NCBI RefSeq assembly: GCF_002572525.1
Contig: NZ_PDBS01000001.1
Span: forward strand, 620,001 to 684,000
Origin: Natrinema sp. CBA1119
Lineage (GTDB): Archaea; Halobacteriota; Halobacteria; Halobacteriales; Natrialbaceae
Reading direction: 5' to 3'
Length of the DNA stretch: 64,000 bases
Every line of letters begins with the position of its first letter. The stretch's first letter is position 1. The translations under genes and the position numbers were made by a program. Shown in pieces: positions 4,895 through 34,021 of the stretch. The notes under the pieces are model-generated. The model was not told the origin of the DNA. It saw only the letters and a program-made list of their open reading frames with translations, and did no database searches.

Positions 4895-6294
4895 TATAAA
4901 CTGCGATAGACGAGTTCGGCGTCGGCTGCATCGTTCGGTTCGAACGCGCCCGCGATGTCGATCAGTGCGGCGTCGTCGTCGAGGTCTGCCGCGACATCGT
5001 CGAGTTCGATATCCTCGAACTCCGAGTGCGAGGTCGTGAGGAGGACGGCGTCGAATCCGTCGAACGAGAGCGATTCCTGAATGTCGATGTCGAACGAGTT
5101 TCGGATCTCGTCGTGGTCGGCGTACGGATCGTATCCCGCGACATCGATATCGAACTCGTGGAGGTGGTCGACGACGTTCGCGACCTTCGAACTGCGGATG
5201 TCACCCACGTCCGACTTGTACGCGAGTCCGAGCACCAGCACGCGGCTCTCTCGCAGTGTCTTATGACACTCGTTGAGCGCCTTGATCGTCAACTCGGCGA
5301 CGTGGTTCGGCATCGACTCGTTGACCTTCCGGCTCGTGAGCATCAGTTCCGGATCCACACCGTCTCGCTTCGCGCGATGCGCGAAGAAGTACGGATCGAC
5401 CGGAATGCAGTGCCCGCCGACGAGCCCCGGCCGGTAGTCGTGGAAGTTCCACTTCGTCCGCGCCGCCTCGAGCACCTCTCGCGTGTCGAGCCCCATCTGT
5501 TCGAAGGCCATCGATAGCTCGTTGACGAGCGCGATGTTGACGTCGCGCTGGATGTTTTCGATGACCTTGCAGGCCTCGGCAACCTCGATCGACGGGGCGG
5601 GGTGGACGCCCGCGTCGACGACCGATTCGTACAGCGTCGCGACGTCCTCGAGGACCGTGTCGTTTTGCGCACCGACCACCTTGACGACGTCCTCGAGCCC
5701 GTGGTCGTTGTCGGCCGGCGTCGCGCGTTCGGGCGAGTAGCCGACGAAGAAATCCTCGCCCGCGCTCAGCCCGGACGCGTCCTCGAGCGCCGGGACGAGG
5801 ATCTCGCGCGTCGAGCCCGGGTAGACGGTCGACTCGAGGACGACGGTGGTTCCGGGATCCAGTTTCGACCCGACGGTCGTCGCCGCGCTCTCCACGTAGC
5901 CGAGGTCCGGCTGCTCGTCGTCGTCGATCGGCGTCGGAATCGCGATGATGACGTAGTCGGCCTCGGTGATCGTGGTCGCGTCGGTCGTATAGGAGATATC
6001 GCCGTCCTGTATGGCGTCGTCCGTGAGGTCACCGGTCGTGTCGATACCCTCCTGTAGTCGGTCGACCGTCACGTCGTCGACGTCGTAGCCGATCACGCGG
6101 TAGTCCGACTGCGCGAATCCGACCGCGAGCGGGAGGCCGACGTATCCCAGTCCGACGACGCAGATCGTCGCCTCGCGGGTCGATTGCTCCGTTGTGTGCT
6201 CGAGGGTGGTTCCCTCACCGCTCGATTCGAGCGCGTACTGACCGCTCGCTCGCTCGTCCGCTCGCTCTTCCGTATCGCCAATTATCGTGGTCAT
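4894..6294 (-). CDS. UDP-sugar (ManNAc/Glc-type) 6-dehydrogenase
   Basis: This 466-residue NAD-dependent nucleotide-sugar dehydrogenase oxidises a UDP-hexose(amine) at C6 to the uronate in two steps. The Rossmann motif GLGYVGLPLAVGF is at residues 48-60. GYSPERATPADND is near 185-197. The catalytic Cys296 lies in VGGHCIPVDPYFF, a form typical of the WecC/UDP-HexNAc dehydrogenase branch; AglM-like UDP-glucose dehydrogenase is the alternative. The first ~43 residues are an acidic, Thr-rich extension before the Rossmann fold, so translation could begin later, although no closer ATG is evident. It is the first gene of the operon and supplies uronic acid donors to the following glycosyltransferases. 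The 350-bp upstream gap contains GGGGT/ACCCC around ACTATA near 6404-6420. Confidence 0.9.
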   Translation of the reverse strand: MTTIIGDTEERADERASGQYALESSGEGTTLEHTTEQSTREATICVVGLGYVGLPLAVGFAQSDYRVIGYDVDDVTVDRLQEGIDTTGDLTDDAIQDGDISYTTDATTITEADYVIIAIPTPIDDDEQPDLGYVESAATTVGSKLDPGTTVVLESTVYPGSTREILVPALEDASGLSAGEDFFVGYSPERATPADNDHGLEDVVKVVGAQNDTVLEDVATLYESVVDAGVHPAPSIEVAEACKVIENIQRDVNIALVNELSMAFEQMGLDTREVLEAARTKWNFHDYRPGLVGGHCIPVDPYFFAHRAKRDGVDPELMLTSRKVNESMPNHVAELTIKALNECHKTLRESRVLVLGLAYKSDVGDIRSSKVANVVDHLHEFDIDVAGYDPYADHDEIRNSFDIDIQESLSFDGFDAVLLTTSHSEFEDIELDDVAADLDDDAALIDIAGAFEPNDAADAELVYRSL

Positions 6295-25688: not shown

Positions 25689-26336
25689 GTGACCGACGTG
25701 GCGCAAATACACCGAACCGACGACACCCCCACCACCGACGACACCGACGGCGATGACGCGTCCGACGACGATCACGACGCGCCTGACGAACCGCTCTCCA
25801 AAGGCGAGGTCTTCGAGGTGTTGCGGAATCAGCGGCGTCGCTATATCCTGCAGTACCTCAAACAGGACGATCGACCCGTCGAACTCGGCGATCTCGCCCA
25901 GCAGATCGCCGCCTGGGAGTACGACACGACCCTTGAGGGTGTCACCCCCGAGCAGCGAAAGCGGGTCTACACGACGCTGCAACAGACCCATCTTCCGAAG
26001 ATGGACGCAACCGGCATTCTCTGCTTCGACGCCGATCGAGGCGTCATCGAGGGGACCGAGCGAACCGGAGACATCAGCGTCTACCTCGAGATCGTCCCCG
26101 GCCGGGAGTTCGCGTGGCGCGAGCTGTACCTCTCGCTGGGCGCGATCAGCTGTGCGCTGGTCGCCGCACTGTGGCTGGAGATCTATCCGCTAACGCATCT
26201 CTCGGAACTGACCTGGACTGCCGCCATCGCGGGGACGTTCACGCTCACTGCGGTCGTCCACATCTACCACGAGCGAAACATGCGTCTCGGTCACGGCGAC
26301 CAGCCACCGGAACTGAGCTACAGCGCCGACGACTGA
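25689..26336 (+). CDS. wHTH regulator with two C-terminal membrane helices (DUF7344 type)
   Basis: About 215 residues from the GTG at 25689. After an Asp/Thr-rich linker, a DUF7344-like winged helix follows: [38 protein letters not shown] and [19 protein letters not shown]. This matches a large haloarchaeal regulator family. Two transmembrane helices near the C-terminus ([15 protein letters not shown] and [16 protein letters not shown]) tether the domain to the membrane. The in-frame upstream codons overlap coaBC and are not credible, so a GTG start (25689 or 25698) was chosen. The target is unknown. hpt follows 115 bp downstream with its own TATA box. Confidence 0.8.
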
Positions 26337-27256: not shown

Positions 27257-28921
27257 ATGTCAGGGAATAGTATCGGGCCGAGTGAACGCGGTCGTCTGCG
27301 ACGGCGTTCACTCCTGAAGGGTGCGGGGGCGGCCGGGGTTGCGGGACTTGCGGGCTGTATCAGGTTCAACAGCGTCACGGCCGACGGCCCGGCCGAGGAG
27401 CTAATACAGGAGGGGTTCGAGGCGGCGGGCGTCGAGCCGCCGTTCGAAACCACGATCGCTATTACCGAAGACGAGGAACGGAACAAGGTCGCACAGCTTC
27501 TCCGGAGCGAACTCAACGGAACCGGCTTTTTCGACGTCTCGATCACCGCTCAGGATTTCGGCTCCCATATCGATATGATGTTCGCCGCGGCCGAGCGGAA
27601 CGAAAACGCCATGTTCGTCTCGAGTTGGACCGGCGGCTGGGATCCGAGCAACTACGTCGACATGCTCTTTCACTCGGACGATCACACGCCGAACGGGTCC
27701 AACATCGGCCACTACTCCAGTGAGACCGTCGACGAGTATATCGACGCCGGCCTCACCGAAACCGATCACGAGGACCGCGTCGAGATTTACCAGAATCTTC
27801 AGGAAGAACTGGTCGCCGATTCGCCGGCGTCGTTCGTTCGCTTCCGCGAAGCGACCCACGTCTGGGACGACGACGTCGTCGGTGGCTGGCAGACGTATCC
27901 GCTTCGACCGGGGACGTACTACGCGATATACGCGCCCTGGGCCGGCGTCTACACCGAACTCGAGGAGGAGTCCGAGTTCGTCGGCGACCTCGGGAGCGAT
28001 GTCACGAACTACGATCCCGTCACGATAACCGGGACCGTCTCCAGTCAGGCGACGGCGCTGCTCTACGAGCAACTCGTCGGCGTCGACTTCGACGGCGAGA
28101 TTCGACCGATGCTCGCCACCGACTGGGAGCGAATCGATGACGAGCAAACTGACGAGATGACCTATCGATTCTCCCTCCGCGAGGGCGTCCGATTTCACAA
28201 CGGCGAGCGACTCACCGCGGCCCACGTCAACGGCTCGCTCGAGCGCTACGAGGGAACGCCGCGAGAGAACGATGTCTACGACTGGTATGAGAGCAGCGAG
28301 GTTATCGACGATCAGACGATCGAGATCAGTTGCTCGCGGGAGTACGGCCCCTTCGAGAGCGCGCTGTTCAACGTCTCGATCGTTCCGATGGCGGTAATCG
28401 ACGGCGAACACGACCTCGAGTCGGAACCGATCGGAACCGGCCCCTACCGGTTCGTCGAACACGAGAGCGACGACCACTGGCGCATGGAGCGCTTCGACGA
28501 GTACTGGTACGAGGGCGGCACCAAAGCGGTCCCCGACACGGCACCGATCGAAACCGTCACGCTCGAGATTATCACCGAAAAGTCGTCCCGACAGGGCGCA
28601 CTCGAGGCCGGGAACATCCACTTCAGTTACGGCGTACCGTCGGCGAGCATCGCCGACTTCGAGAGCGACGCGGCCTACGACGTCGGTCGCCACGTCGGCG
28701 GCGGGTTCGATATGGTGATCTACCCCACCTACCGCGCGCCGTTTTCCGAGCGGTCGGTCCGTCGCGGCTGTAACATGTTGATTCCGCGCGAACGAATCCT
28801 CGAGAACGTCTACCGAGGCATCGGCCAACTGGCGTATACGCCGATCTCACCGCTGCTCGAGGACTATGCGAGCGGATCGTTTCAGGAGATGGTCGCCGAC
28901 GAGTACGTCCGTCCGAACTAA
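27257..28921 (+). CDS. ABC importer substrate-binding lipoprotein, SBP_bac_5 family, circularly permuted
   Basis: A 554-residue Tat lipoprotein: RRRSLLKGAG is the twin-Arg signal and LAGC (Cys34) the lipobox. The domain order is abnormal. Residues ~44-235 (GPAEELIQEGFEAAGV, later WDPSNYVDMLFHS and TDHEDRVEIYQNLQEEL) match the C-terminal third of SBP_bac_5 proteins. Residues ~240-554 match the N-terminal two thirds: NYDPVTITGTVSSQ, LLYEQLVGVDFDGEIRPMLA, FSLREGVRFHNGERLTAAHV, GTGPYRFVEHE. The frame then stops at DEYVRPN, just where the moved block would normally continue. It starts the importer operon, 22 bp before the permease. Ligand: probably a peptide or other small solute. The start ATG was chosen for the Tat signal. 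Confidence 0.85.
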   Translation: MSGNSIGPSERGRLRRRSLLKGAGAAGVAGLAGCIRFNSVTADGPAEELIQEGFEAAGVEPPFETTIAITEDEERNKVAQLLRSELNGTGFFDVSITAQDFGSHIDMMFAAAERNENAMFVSSWTGGWDPSNYVDMLFHSDDHTPNGSNIGHYSSETVDEYIDAGLTETDHEDRVEIYQNLQEELVADSPASFVRFREATHVWDDDVVGGWQTYPLRPGTYYAIYAPWAGVYTELEEESEFVGDLGSDVTNYDPVTITGTVSSQATALLYEQLVGVDFDGEIRPMLATDWERIDDEQTDEMTYRFSLREGVRFHNGERLTAAHVNGSLERYEGTPRENDVYDWYESSEVIDDQTIEISCSREYGPFESALFNVSIVPMAVIDGEHDLESEPIGTGPYRFVEHESDDHWRMERFDEYWYEGGTKAVPDTAPIETVTLEIITEKSSRQGALEAGNIHFSYGVPSASIADFESDAAYDVGRHVGGGFDMVIYPTYRAPFSERSVRRGCNMLIPRERILENVYRGIGQLAYTPISPLLEDYASGSFQEMVADEYVRPN

Positions 28922-28942: not shown

Positions 28943-29890
28943 ATGACGCTCGGCCGATACGTCTGGACGCGGTTGTTGGTCACCGCGCCGGTCCTCTTCG
29001 GCGTCACCGCACTGACCTTTTCGTTCGTCCACCTGTTGCCGGGCGACGCGGTCGACGCGATAATCGGCTTTCAGGACGTCAGCCCGGCGGTCGAGGCGTC
29101 GATCCGGGCCGAGTACCACCTCGACCAGCCGGTCTGGAAACAGTACGTGCTATGGCTGGGCGACGCGGCGACCCTCGAGTTCGGCGAGTCGCCGATCACC
29201 GGTCGCGACGTCTCGGCGACGATCGGTCGGCGACTCCCAGCGACGCTCGCGCTCGGCGGGGCCGCGTGGCTGCTCGCGCTCGCGGTCGGGATCCCCGCGG
29301 GAATCGTCGCCGCCGTGAGGGCGGGCGAGCCGGCCGACGAACTCGGGCGGATCGCGGCGCTTGCCGGGATCGCGACGCCGAACTTCTGGCTCGGCCTCAT
29401 CCTGTTGTTCGTCTTCAGCGTCCGGCTGGGCTGGTTTCGCGTCATCCCGCCGGACGCGCCGCTCGCCAGCCTCGCGATGGCGAAGTTCATGCTCCTGCCG
29501 ACGATCACGCTCGGGACCGCGTCGGCCGCACTGATCACGCGCCTGTTGCGGTCGTCGATGCGCCGGGAACTCGAGGCGGCCTACGTCCGGACCGCACGCG
29601 CGAAGGGGCTCTCCGAACGAACGGTGATTCTGAAACACGTCCTGCGAAACGCCCTGCTTCCGGTCGTCACCGTCGCCGGCCTCCAGCTCGCCTTTCTCGT
29701 CGACGGTGCCGTCGTCGTCGAACAGATATTCTCCTGGCCGGGCATGGGGCGGCTACTTGTCCGGTCGATCCTCCGGCGCGACTACACCGTCATCCAGGCG
29801 ACCGTCCTCGTCATCGGCGTCGCGATCGTGTTCGCGACCCTGCTCGTCGACATCGTCTACGCGATCCTCGATCCGCGAATTCGATACTGA
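28943..29890 (+). CDS. dppB: Dipeptide/oligopeptide ABC importer permease, DppB type
   Basis: This 315-residue inner permease begins LGRYVWTRLLVTAPVLFGVTA, the classical DppB first helix, followed by a large external loop and about six helices. The coupling-helix EAA motif is AAYVRTARAKGLSERTVILK, with HVLRNALLPVV after it. It pairs with the DppC-like subunit 3 bp downstream and the two ATPases, forming a complete importer in the order SBP-B-C-D-F. Family assignment is firm; the transported solute (dipeptides, oligopeptides, nickel or glycans) is inferred only from family. Confidence 0.92.
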   Translation: MTLGRYVWTRLLVTAPVLFGVTALTFSFVHLLPGDAVDAIIGFQDVSPAVEASIRAEYHLDQPVWKQYVLWLGDAATLEFGESPITGRDVSATIGRRLPATLALGGAAWLLALAVGIPAGIVAAVRAGEPADELGRIAALAGIATPNFWLGLILLFVFSVRLGWFRVIPPDAPLASLAMAKFMLLPTITLGTASAALITRLLRSSMRRELEAAYVRTARAKGLSERTVILKHVLRNALLPVVTVAGLQLAFLVDGAVVVEQIFSWPGMGRLLVRSILRRDYTVIQATVLVIGVAIVFATLLVDIVYAILDPRIRY

Positions 29891-29893
29891 CCA

Positions 29894-31021
29894 ATGAGCG
29901 ACCGACATCCCACCACCCAGCGCGGCCGGATTCGCATCGTCGGCTTCGACGACGCCGTCGCGGACCAGCAAGCGGGTGATCGGGACGACGACGACGATAT
30001 CGACGCCACAACAGCGGCGGGATCCATCGCCAGTTCGACGACGCCCGAGGAGACCACAACGGAGACAGAGTCAGAACCCGATCGGCCGAGACGTCGCCTC
30101 GAGGACGCGTGGCGTCGGTTCCGACGGAACCGAACGGCGATGGCCGGGCTGGGAGTGATCGTCGTCATGGCGGTGCTGGCCGTCTTCGCCAGACCGATCG
30201 AGGTGTCGACGGCGGAAGTCACGATCACGCTCCAGCCGTTCTCGCTGGCACCGTACGATCCGTCCGCGATGTTCGTCGGCCCGGCGAACGCGCCGCCCTC
30301 TCGAGCGCATCCCTTCGGCACGGACTGGGCGGGCCGCGACCAGCTCTCGCGGGTCCTCGTCGGCGGCCGGTACACGCTGGGAATCGGGCTCGTCGCCGTC
30401 GCACTGGCGCTTTGCGTCGGCGTCCCCCTCGGGGCGATCGCAGGCTACTTCGGCGGCTGGATCGACGAGGCGATCATGCGACTCGTCGACGTGCTGTACG
30501 CCTTCCCGTTTCTGGTGCTGGCGATCGCGATCGTCCCGATCCTCGAGCCGGTGCCGATCCTCGGCGGCGGCTTCTGGACGGTGGTGCTGGCGCTGGCCGT
30601 CACCGGCTGGATCGGCTACGCTCGCCTGTTGCGCGGCGAGGTTCTCTCGGTCCGAGAACGCGAGTACGTCACGGCCGCGAGAGCGCTCGGCGTCCCCGAT
30701 CGGACTGTCATCCGCAGACACGTCGTCCCGAACGCCGTCGCCCCCGTCGTCGTCCAGGCGACGCTCAACGTCGGCACGGTCGTCCTCACCGCGGCGGCGC
30801 TCGGCTTCCTCGGCCTCGGCCTCGAGCCCGGGAGCGCCGAGTGGGGTGCGATGCTCTCCCAGGGCCGGAGTTCGCTCGTACAGGGCCGCTGGCACATCAC
30901 CGTCTTTCCCGGGCTCGCGATCTTCCTGTTCGTGCTGGCGATCAACCTCGTCGGTGACGGGATCAACGACGCGCTGGACCCCCACCGGGACGTGAGCGAC
31001 GAACGGAGGCGGCTGCGCTGA
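29894..31021 (+). CDS. dppC: Dipeptide/oligopeptide ABC importer permease, DppC type
   Basis: A 375-residue permease with an unusual N-terminal cytoplasmic extension of about 75 acidic, Thr-rich residues before DAWRRFRRNRTAMAGLGVIV, where the standard OppC-N region starts. The EAA motif is REYVTAARALGVPDRTVIRR, followed by HVVPNAVAPVV. A periplasmic-type loop with PFGTDWAGRDQLSRVLVGG is typical of DppC. The stop overlaps the next ATG by one base. The extension is absent from bacterial DppC and may be a haloarchaeal disordered tail. Confidence 0.92.
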   Translation: MSDRHPTTQRGRIRIVGFDDAVADQQAGDRDDDDDIDATTAAGSIASSTTPEETTTETESEPDRPRRRLEDAWRRFRRNRTAMAGLGVIVVMAVLAVFARPIEVSTAEVTITLQPFSLAPYDPSAMFVGPANAPPSRAHPFGTDWAGRDQLSRVLVGGRYTLGIGLVAVALALCVGVPLGAIAGYFGGWIDEAIMRLVDVLYAFPFLVLAIAIVPILEPVPILGGGFWTVVLALAVTGWIGYARLLRGEVLSVREREYVTAARALGVPDRTVIRRHVVPNAVAPVVVQATLNVGTVVLTAAALGFLGLGLEPGSAEWGAMLSQGRSSLVQGRWHITVFPGLAIFLFVLAINLVGDGINDALDPHRDVSDERRRLR

Positions 31022-32157
31022 TGTCGCTGCTCGAGGTGGATGATCTCGTCGTCCAGTTCTATACCGAAAACGGCGTCGTCCGGGCGGTCGACGGCATCAG
31101 TTACGAGATCCGCGCGGGCGAGACGCTCGGACTCGTCGGCGAGAGCGGAGCCGGCAAGAGCGTCGCCAGCCTCGCGTTGCTCCGGCTAATCGACTCCCCC
31201 GGCGAGATCGTCGGCGGCGAGATCAGGTTTCGCGGGCGGGACGTTCTCGAGCTATCGGCCGACGAGATGCGCGGGCTCAGAGGCGACGAGATCGCGATGG
31301 TCTTTCAGGACGCGGGCGCGGCGCTCAACCCAGTCTACACCGTCGGCGAACAGATATCGGAGGCGATCCGTACACACGAGGCCGTCACCGACGAGACGGC
31401 TCGCGACCGCGCGATTGCGCTCCTCGAGCGGGTCGGAATCTCTGACCCGGCCGCCCGATATTCGGACTACCCCCACGAGTTCTCCGGTGGAATGCAACAG
31501 CGGGCCGTCATCGCGATGGGGCTGTCCTGCGATCCCGCCCTGCTCGTCTGCGACGAGCCGACGACCGACCTCGACGTCACTGTTCAGGCAGGGATCCTCG
31601 AGTTACTCGCGGATCTCGCGCGGGAGTCAGAGACGGCGATCCAGCTGGTCACCCACGACCTCGGCGTCGTCGCCGAGATCTGCGATCGGGTACTGGTGCA
31701 GTACGCGGGCGAAATCGTCGAGCGCGCGCCGGTCGAGGAGCTGTACTACGACCCGAAACACCCCTATACCGTGGGGTTACTGGCCTCGATTCCCCGAGTA
31801 GGCGACGGGCGTGAGCGCCTCGCGACCGTCCCCGGGACGACCCCCGACCTCGTCGATCCGCCAACCGGCTGCCGGTTCCACCCGCGCTGCCCGTACGCGG
31901 AGGGCGTCTGTGCCAGACGTCGCCCGCCGCTCGTCGAGACGGAATCGGGAGCTCCGGACGACGGCCACCCCGAGACCCACGTCGCCGCCTGTCTCGAGTA
32001 CACCGGCGACCTCGAGGAGGGGCTGGACTACGAGGTGCAGGTTCGGGACGGAGCGGACGAATCGACCGAGTCGAACGAACCGGACGAACGCCATCTCGGC
32101 GGGGACGACGGCGAAGAACCGACCCGCGAACGCGACCGGAGGGGTGAGCCGCGATGA
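31021..32157 (+). CDS. dppD: Dipeptide/oligopeptide ABC importer ATPase, DppD type
   Basis: This 378-residue ATPase has Walker [13 protein letters not shown]-loop [12 protein letters not shown], signature [15 protein letters not shown], Walker [17 protein letters not shown] and switch His in [11 protein letters not shown]. The C-terminal oligopeptide-transporter domain contains [20 protein letters not shown]. An acidic tail of about 45 residues follows. It overlaps dppC by one base and dppF by four bases, so translation is coupled. It energises import together with the DppF homologue. Confidence 0.94.
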
Positions 32158-33479
32158 CGACGACCGACGACCCACTGATTCGCGCCGAGGGGCTCGAGAA
32201 ACGCTACACGACGGCTGACGGCTTTCTCGATCGACTGCTCGGGCGGCGCGAAACGGTTCGGGCGGTCGACGGCGTCGACCTCGAGATTCGCGCCGGCGAG
32301 ACGCTCGGGCTGGTCGGCGAGAGCGGCTGCGGCAAGACGACGCTCGGCCGGGCGCTCGTCCGACTGCTCGAGCCGACTGCGGGCTCGATCACCTACCGCG
32401 ACACCGAACTGACCGAGTGCTCCCGGTCCGAACTCCGGGCGCTGCGATCCGAGATTCAGTACGTCTTTCAGGATCCTCTCGCCAGCCTGAACCCGCAGCT
32501 GACCGTCGCCGACATCGTCGGCGAGGCGCTCGCGGTTCACGACGTCGTTCCGCCGGAGCACCGCGACGAGCGCGTTCGGGAGTTGCTCGAGACGGTCGGG
32601 CTGCAACCCAATCACGCGAGCCGGTACCCCCACGAGTTTTCGGGCGGCCAGCGCCAGCGGATCGGCATCGCACGCGCGCTCGCGGTCGAACCCGAGTTCC
32701 TCGTCTGCGACGAGCCGGTGTCCTCGCTCGACGTCTCCGTACAGGCCGGGATCATCAATCTGCTCGCCGACCTCCAGAAGGAGTTCGGGCTTTCCTATCT
32801 CATTATCACCCACGACCTCTCGGTGGTCGAGCACGTCGCCGACCGGGTCGCCGTGATGTATCTCGGGGGACTCGTCGAAACCGGGACGACTACCGAGGTC
32901 TTCGACGCGCCCTCTCACCCCTACACCGAAGCGCTGCTGTCGGCGATCCCCGAACCCGACCCCTGCTGGGCGGGCGATCGGATCGTCCTCGAGGGATCGG
33001 TTCCCTCCCCCACCGATCCGCCCTCTGGCTGTCGATTTCACACGCGCTGTCCGAAAGTCATCCCGCCCGCCGAGTACGACCTCGAGACGGACTCGTTCCG
33101 CTCGATCATGGCGCTTCGAACGCGACTCGCCGAGGCGGACGCCGACGCGGGACTCGAGGCGCTCCTCCCGCGAACCGACGCCAGCGGGGACGCCACCGCG
33201 GCGATCCGGGACGCCAACGGGATCCCCCACCAGCTCTCCGATCCGGACGCGGAGGCGGCTCTCGCGGACGCGCTCGAGGTCGCTTCGGCCGGCGATTTCG
33301 AGGCCGCACGGGATCGGCTCGCGTCGGCGTTCGAGACGCCCTGCGAGACGACTAAGCCGGCGCTCGAACCGGGGACGGCCGACCATCCGATCGCCTGCCA
33401 CCGGTTCGATGATCGACTCGAGGGCGAACCCGAACCGATCGCCGGAACGAAACGCCGTATGCGAGGGACCGACCGATGA
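32154..33479 (+). CDS. dppF: Dipeptide/oligopeptide ABC importer ATPase, DppF type
   Basis: This 441-residue ATPase has Walker [14 protein letters not shown]-loop [13 protein letters not shown], signature [13 protein letters not shown], Walker [18 protein letters not shown] and switch His [11 protein letters not shown]. The C-terminal oligo_HPY region carries [13 protein letters not shown]. Beyond it is an Ala/Asp-rich extension of about 110 residues, longer than the bacterial protein, of the type common in haloarchaeal DppF. It overlaps both neighbours by 4 bp. Confidence 0.94.
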
Positions 33480-34021
33480 CGGGAAACGACGACTTCGACG
33501 CGCTCGAGCGGTCGACCGACGATCCGTTCGCGCCCGGGCGGGAGAGCGGTAACGGGGGCGGGGGCGGGGGCGGGGGCGGGCGCACGATCGACTGGACAGC
33601 GTTCAGCCACGCGTTCACGCCGCGGGCGTTGCGTCACCGCGCGATCGACATCAGCGTCTCGACGGATAACCGCCGATACGAGCACGGCGAGCCGGTCGAG
33701 ATCACCGTCGAGTTTCGCAACCGGCTCCCGCTCCCGATTCGGATCCGGACCGAGTCGCCAAAGCGCTGGGTCTGGGCCGTCGACGGCTACAGGGAGGCCT
33801 CGCAGGTACCGCGGACGGTTCCCGACCGGCCCGCCGCGTTCTCCTTCGCCCGGCGCGAGCGCAAACGCTTCCGCCGACGGTGGTCCCAGCGAATTCGGGT
33901 TTCCGACGACGAGTGGAAGCCGGTCGACGCGGGCACGTACGCGATCGAGGTGCGGCTCAATTGCGCGGACGCTGCAGCCCGCGGTCTCGTCGATCGAACC
34001 GCGATCGAAATCGAGGGCTAA
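33476..34021 (+). CDS. Uncharacterised Ig-like (BsuPI/DUF7974-like) protein, last gene of the importer operon
   Basis: A 181-residue protein co-translated with dppF (4-bp overlap). After an acidic start and a 9-Gly linker (about residues 27-35) lies a beta-rich domain: [21 protein letters not shown], then [19 protein letters not shown], then the final strand [11 protein letters not shown]. The order 'polar strand, aromatic W-x-W-x-V/S-DG hairpin, GTY-strand' recalls the BsuPI intracellular protease-inhibitor-like Ig fold. I infer the resemblance; no homologue can be confirmed here. There is no signal peptide. Its fixed place after dppF suggests a link to the transporter or to peptide/protease control. 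The Gly linker DNA is a G-run microsatellite. Confidence 0.65.
33554..33580 (+). repeat. Tandem GGGGGC run (poly-Gly linker, possible G-quadruplex)
   Basis: Four consecutive GGGGGC units followed by GGGC sit on the coding strand. The sequence meets the simple four-G-tract requirement for a G-quadruplex, and encodes consecutive Gly residues. Gain or loss of a unit keeps the frame. Confidence 0.8.

Follow-up and report, generated by a model that had tools for sequence, protein, structure and literature searches.

A circularly permuted family-5 solute-binding protein predicted at the head of a haloarchaeal importer operon points to repeated change of chain order in its family

Here, we analysed a window of 64,000 nucleotides from Natrinema sp. 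CBA1119 (positions 620,001 to 684,000 of contig NZ_PDBS01000001.1, assembly GCF_002572525.1), in which the open reading frame at window positions 27257-28921 of the forward strand encodes a protein of 554 residues with a Tat motif and a lipobox, RRRSLLKGAGAAGVAGLAGC; the match to the TAT_signal profile is weak and lies under the cut-off. The four genes that follow this putative solute-binding protein (SBP) code for permeases and ATPases of the Dpp/Opp type, and the locus is laid out as follows.

27257..27358, + strand: Tat signal peptide with lipobox (residues 1-34, RRRSLLKGAGAAGVAGLAGC), with Cys34 as predicted lipidation site; conserved in orthologs
27386..27961, + strand: SBP C-terminal block, now N-terminal (residues 44-235), assigned from phmmer (57-202 to 5u4o 357-495) and a profile of normal-order orthologs
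27962..27973, + strand: new linker between the old C-terminus and the old N-terminus (about residues 236-239), placed by comparison with the tails and heads of normal-order orthologs
27974..28918, + strand: SBP N-terminal block, now C-terminal (residues 240-554), assigned from Pfam SBP_bac_5 (281-540, profile 1-257) and 5u4o 52-335
28943..29890, + strand: DppB-type permease (BPD_transp_1 and BPD_transp_1_N)
29894..31021, + strand: DppC-type permease (BPD_transp_1 and OppC_N)
31021..32157, + strand: DppD-type ATPase (ABC_tran and oligo_HPY)
32154..33479, + strand: DppF-type ATPase (ABC_tran and oligo_HPY)
33476..34021, + strand: small last gene of the operon, without a Pfam match, syntenic in the permuted and most normal-order loci

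The gene at 33476-34021, which is kept at the end of the operon, is a possible partner of the importer. Upstream, at 25716-26336, lies a gene with a DUF7344 domain; its synteny with the operon extends to several related genomes.

The two halves of the window protein match the family-5 SBPs in exchanged positions. Pfam SBP_bac_5 aligns residues 281-540 with only positions 1-257 of its 368-position profile (191.4 bits against a cut-off of 32.4), and the remainder of the family lies upstream of this match, rather than following in the canonical single run from 1 to 366; a normal-order ortholog, by comparison, covers profile positions 2-366. The best chain in the PDB, 5u4o, is matched by phmmer in two pieces of swapped order, residues 247-536 on 52-335 (E 1e-25) and residues 57-202 on 357-495 (E 2e-12). 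As the beginning of the Pfam profile thus stands at the C-terminus and the two 5u4o blocks come in reverse order, the halves are swapped, and both segments are homologous to the parent, as in a circular permutant. At the level of sequence homology, then, the window protein is a family-5 (DppA/OppA/NikA-type, SBP_bac_5) SBP with a real circular permutation. Cluster B sugar-binding proteins do not occur among the 60 PDB sequence matches listed, which are of the family-5 type, and no NCBIfam equivalog reaches its cut-off (DppA NF043070 scores 78 bits against 1005).

The unpermuted counterparts of this protein are found in the genomes of other families. Across the order, where the strongest family-5 matches were listed, close relatives in canonical order occur at loci L061-L079, with the C-block after the N-block and identities to the window protein of at most 49% (N-block) and 41% (C-block). 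Whichever the chain order, the SBP gene stands first in the same operon, SBP-dppB-dppC-dppD-dppF, in most cases with a counterpart of the gene at 33476-34021 at its end, which argues that the order of the SBP changed inside an otherwise unchanged transporter. The cut can be placed closely: one normal-order ortholog (L062) reads through EEYMRYDPEQARELLERGFSALDIS, whereas the window protein ends in DEYVRPN followed by the stop, directly before the helix where the normal protein carries on, and starts after the signal with DGPAEELIQEGFEAAG. The join in the window protein is YAIYAPWAGVYTELEEESEFVGDLGSDV; L062 ends with IYAPWANTYTSLGGG and begins with ELVATLGADV. Invariant residues are shared between permuted and normal orthologs, and the column entropies of the two sets are correlated (r=0.54, with 0.14 the highest value in 1000 shuffles). 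These comparisons bear out the preliminary description of the locus on four points: the block boundaries at 44-235 and 240-554; the end of the frame exactly where the moved block begins, the point that L062 reads across; the normal dppBCDF genes, in which DppB, DppC, DppD and DppF domains were found; and the assignment of residues 44-235 to the SBP, since they match C-terminal halves of SBPs.

Permuted family-5 proteins extend well beyond this operon. In the host genome, 4 of the 6 SBP_bac_5 proteins are permuted, and the three besides the window protein group with proteins of many haloarchaea and of Alphaproteobacteria (Nitratireductor, Ketogulonicigenium, Roseomonas) in a single clade (SH-aLRT 99), hereafter clade B, which has a strong match in 8 of 240 sampled alphaproteobacterial genomes. 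The cut of clade B lies about 25 residues beyond that of the window protein, after the helix and not before it, with a C-terminus of the type ALEAAGYTWSDDGKL, and the Pfam match ends at position 284-285 in the members scanned, as against 257. The PDB alignments shown for clade B proteins have two pieces in swapped order; among the chains listed, none matched over the whole length, the best stretches covering one half. Two of the host proteins of the clade B type, L006 and L007, adjoin each other at G000:C1:340919-344669, and the third, L003, lies at G000:C1:3227022-3228527. In Ketogulonicigenium (L124) and Roseomonas (L125), the clade B SBPs adjoin genes for hydantoinase/oxoprolinase and M20/M28 peptidases, a setting suggestive of peptide- or hydantoin-like substrates.

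An assembly or sequencing error that rearranged a normal gene would yield swapped halves in one genome. However, a search of the genus recovered a permuted ortholog in 25 of 29 Natrinema genomes; in 24 of these the match runs unbroken from residue 1 to about 554. Identity is 65-91% in the other species of the genus, and the complete chromosome of Natrinema zhouii (L035) is among the carriers; the other four genomes (G012, G015, G016 and G025) had no ortholog at E 1e-60. Family-wide, the permuted ortholog is present in 44 of 125 genomes and 9 of 29 genera, with identity as low as 43%. Because the same order is kept, with graded divergence, in so many independent assemblies of the genus and the family, we reject an artefact, the probability of which is negligible. 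The preliminary description was thus right to regard the permutation as genuine, and the search it had called for, for the same order in other haloarchaea, was successful; its expectation that such a permutation would be rare in the family is not supported, in view of the four permuted proteins of the host and the second permuted clade, with members in haloarchaea and Alphaproteobacteria. Viral contigs, searched as well, yielded no match. It could further be argued that the rearranged gene is decaying or non-functional and hitch-hikes in the operon, given that the functional role of the protein is read from its sequence. Against this stand the dN/dS values of 0.17-0.24 relative to five congeners, by which the gene is judged to be under purifying selection, the invariant residues common to the permuted and normal orthologs, and a frame that is intact in all congeneric orthologs but one. 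In that exception (L099, around 6088-6105; G026:C5), the SBP gene is split by CTGTCTCTTATACACAT, which we take to be the end of a Nextera adapter, followed by an N; this looks like a flaw or contamination of that public assembly. We therefore consider a decaying gene very improbable, though not to the same degree as an artefact, and the window gene to be very probably a genuine, functional, circularly permuted cluster C lipoprotein of a peptide-type ABC importer.

Whether all permuted proteins go back to one ancient event is a separate question. Such an origin is suggested by the two cut sites, which lie just about 25 residues apart and flank one helix, so that differing trimming of a redundant, duplicated helix could have produced both, with the normal-order relatives of type A having reverted or being misplaced in the trees. 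Since both cut sites can be explained in this way, it is the tree and not the cut site that carries the inference of two events. The SBP tree was built on re-ordered halves, and the compositions were screened by script (in several attempts the aligner had set C-halves on N-halves). Holding all permuted proteins as one clade lowers the log-likelihood by 55.9 and is rejected by the AU test (p=1e-4), which implies at least two order changes. Moreover, type A sits among syntenic normal-order haloarchaeal orthologs, and any reversion would count as one more permutation. A single ancient permutation is thus improbable, and the sequences indicate that the family-5 SBPs underwent at least two order changes, with more possible. 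Within type A, L080 with L093, and L094-L096, lie near normal-order proteins in the SBP tree; in the DppBCD tree, the L080/L093 pair goes with normal-order operons and L094-L096 are placed elsewhere. Both trees set normal-order proteins among type A, but neither data set rejects a single origin for the type-A proteins (p=0.228 for the SBP and p=0.166 for DppBCD). Tentatively, we therefore raise the possibility, to which we give somewhat less than even weight, that the helix is a hot spot at which chain order has changed repeatedly, through two or more independent permutations and, in type A, one further permutation or a return to normal order, while the operon and the partner proteins stayed constant.

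Turning to the protein itself, we ran AlphaFold on shallow, hand-built alignments of the window protein, its N. zhouii ortholog and halves of bacterial relatives. The resulting models are of low confidence (pLDDT 51 and 55), and it is homology that indicates how the chain as a whole would fold; within the model, the match to family-5 structures is confined to residues 209-442 (Z 12.8, 1xoc), and the N-block alone clearly resembles them. By homology, the chain would adopt the two-lobed shape customary in these binding proteins, with a short linker joining the old termini and the new termini placed in the second lobe. In DppA and OppA, both original termini lie in lobe I, close in space, and the cut of the window protein, presumably at about DppA residue 320-340 to judge from the PDB alignment ranges, would fall in lobe II; given these positions, the lipid anchor would hold lobe II and not lobe I. 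Most likely, the window protein is a binding protein of the ordinary lipid-anchored kind whose anchor has shifted to the other lobe; it would capture a solute, a peptide-like compound or a metal chelate, and pass it to DppBCDF. Tandem duplication followed by trimming is a plausible route to its permutation, which probably arose in place, and no intermediate of this route was seen. A second order change, with the other cut site, would have founded the large separate clade of haloarchaea and Alphaproteobacteria.

It is unusual for orthologs of both chain orders to persist in one syntenic operon, and their persistence opens the evolution and the cost of such a change to direct test. If the helix is indeed a hot spot, these natural ortholog pairs would allow the effects of chain order and of anchor position on an importer to be tested. 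The automatic label 'ABC transporter substrate-binding protein' conceals a topological class, possibly a common one to judge from its share of the family-5 proteins in the host. In the open-licence literature, we found no report of a permutation in family 5 or in haloarchaeal binding proteins. A permuted protein was already known in cluster B; those of family 5 are widespread and were previously masked by ordinary annotation.

Among the known systems, the window protein is closest to the family-5/cluster C SBPs (SBP_bac_5; DppA, OppA, AppA, NikA), with which it shares homology in both halves, many conserved residues, and permease and ATPase partners of one type; unlike them, it has its halves swapped and, by inference, its new termini within the second lobe and its anchor on the other lobe. 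Clade B shares with it the half swap, the Pfam family and the adjoining permease and ATPase genes of an ABC importer, but is cut after the helix (284) rather than before it (257) and forms a separate clade. The known parallel is TpMglB-2 (Tp0684) of Treponema pallidum, a permuted cluster B glucose-binding protein for which the class 'Type Ic / Cluster Bc' has been proposed (PMC4990184). It is a natural, functional permutation of a lipoprotein-anchored SBP of an ABC importer, as the window protein is predicted to be. TpMglB-2 differs in its Type I fold, in which only strands of the N-lobe were relocated to the C-terminal part and the chain crosses the hinge a fourth time (PMC4990184). For TpMglB-2, membrane tethering has been raised as selecting for the permuted topology (PMC4990184); as the alphaproteobacterial clade B proteins that were read have signal peptides without a lipobox, they argue against anchoring as a general reason for this topology.
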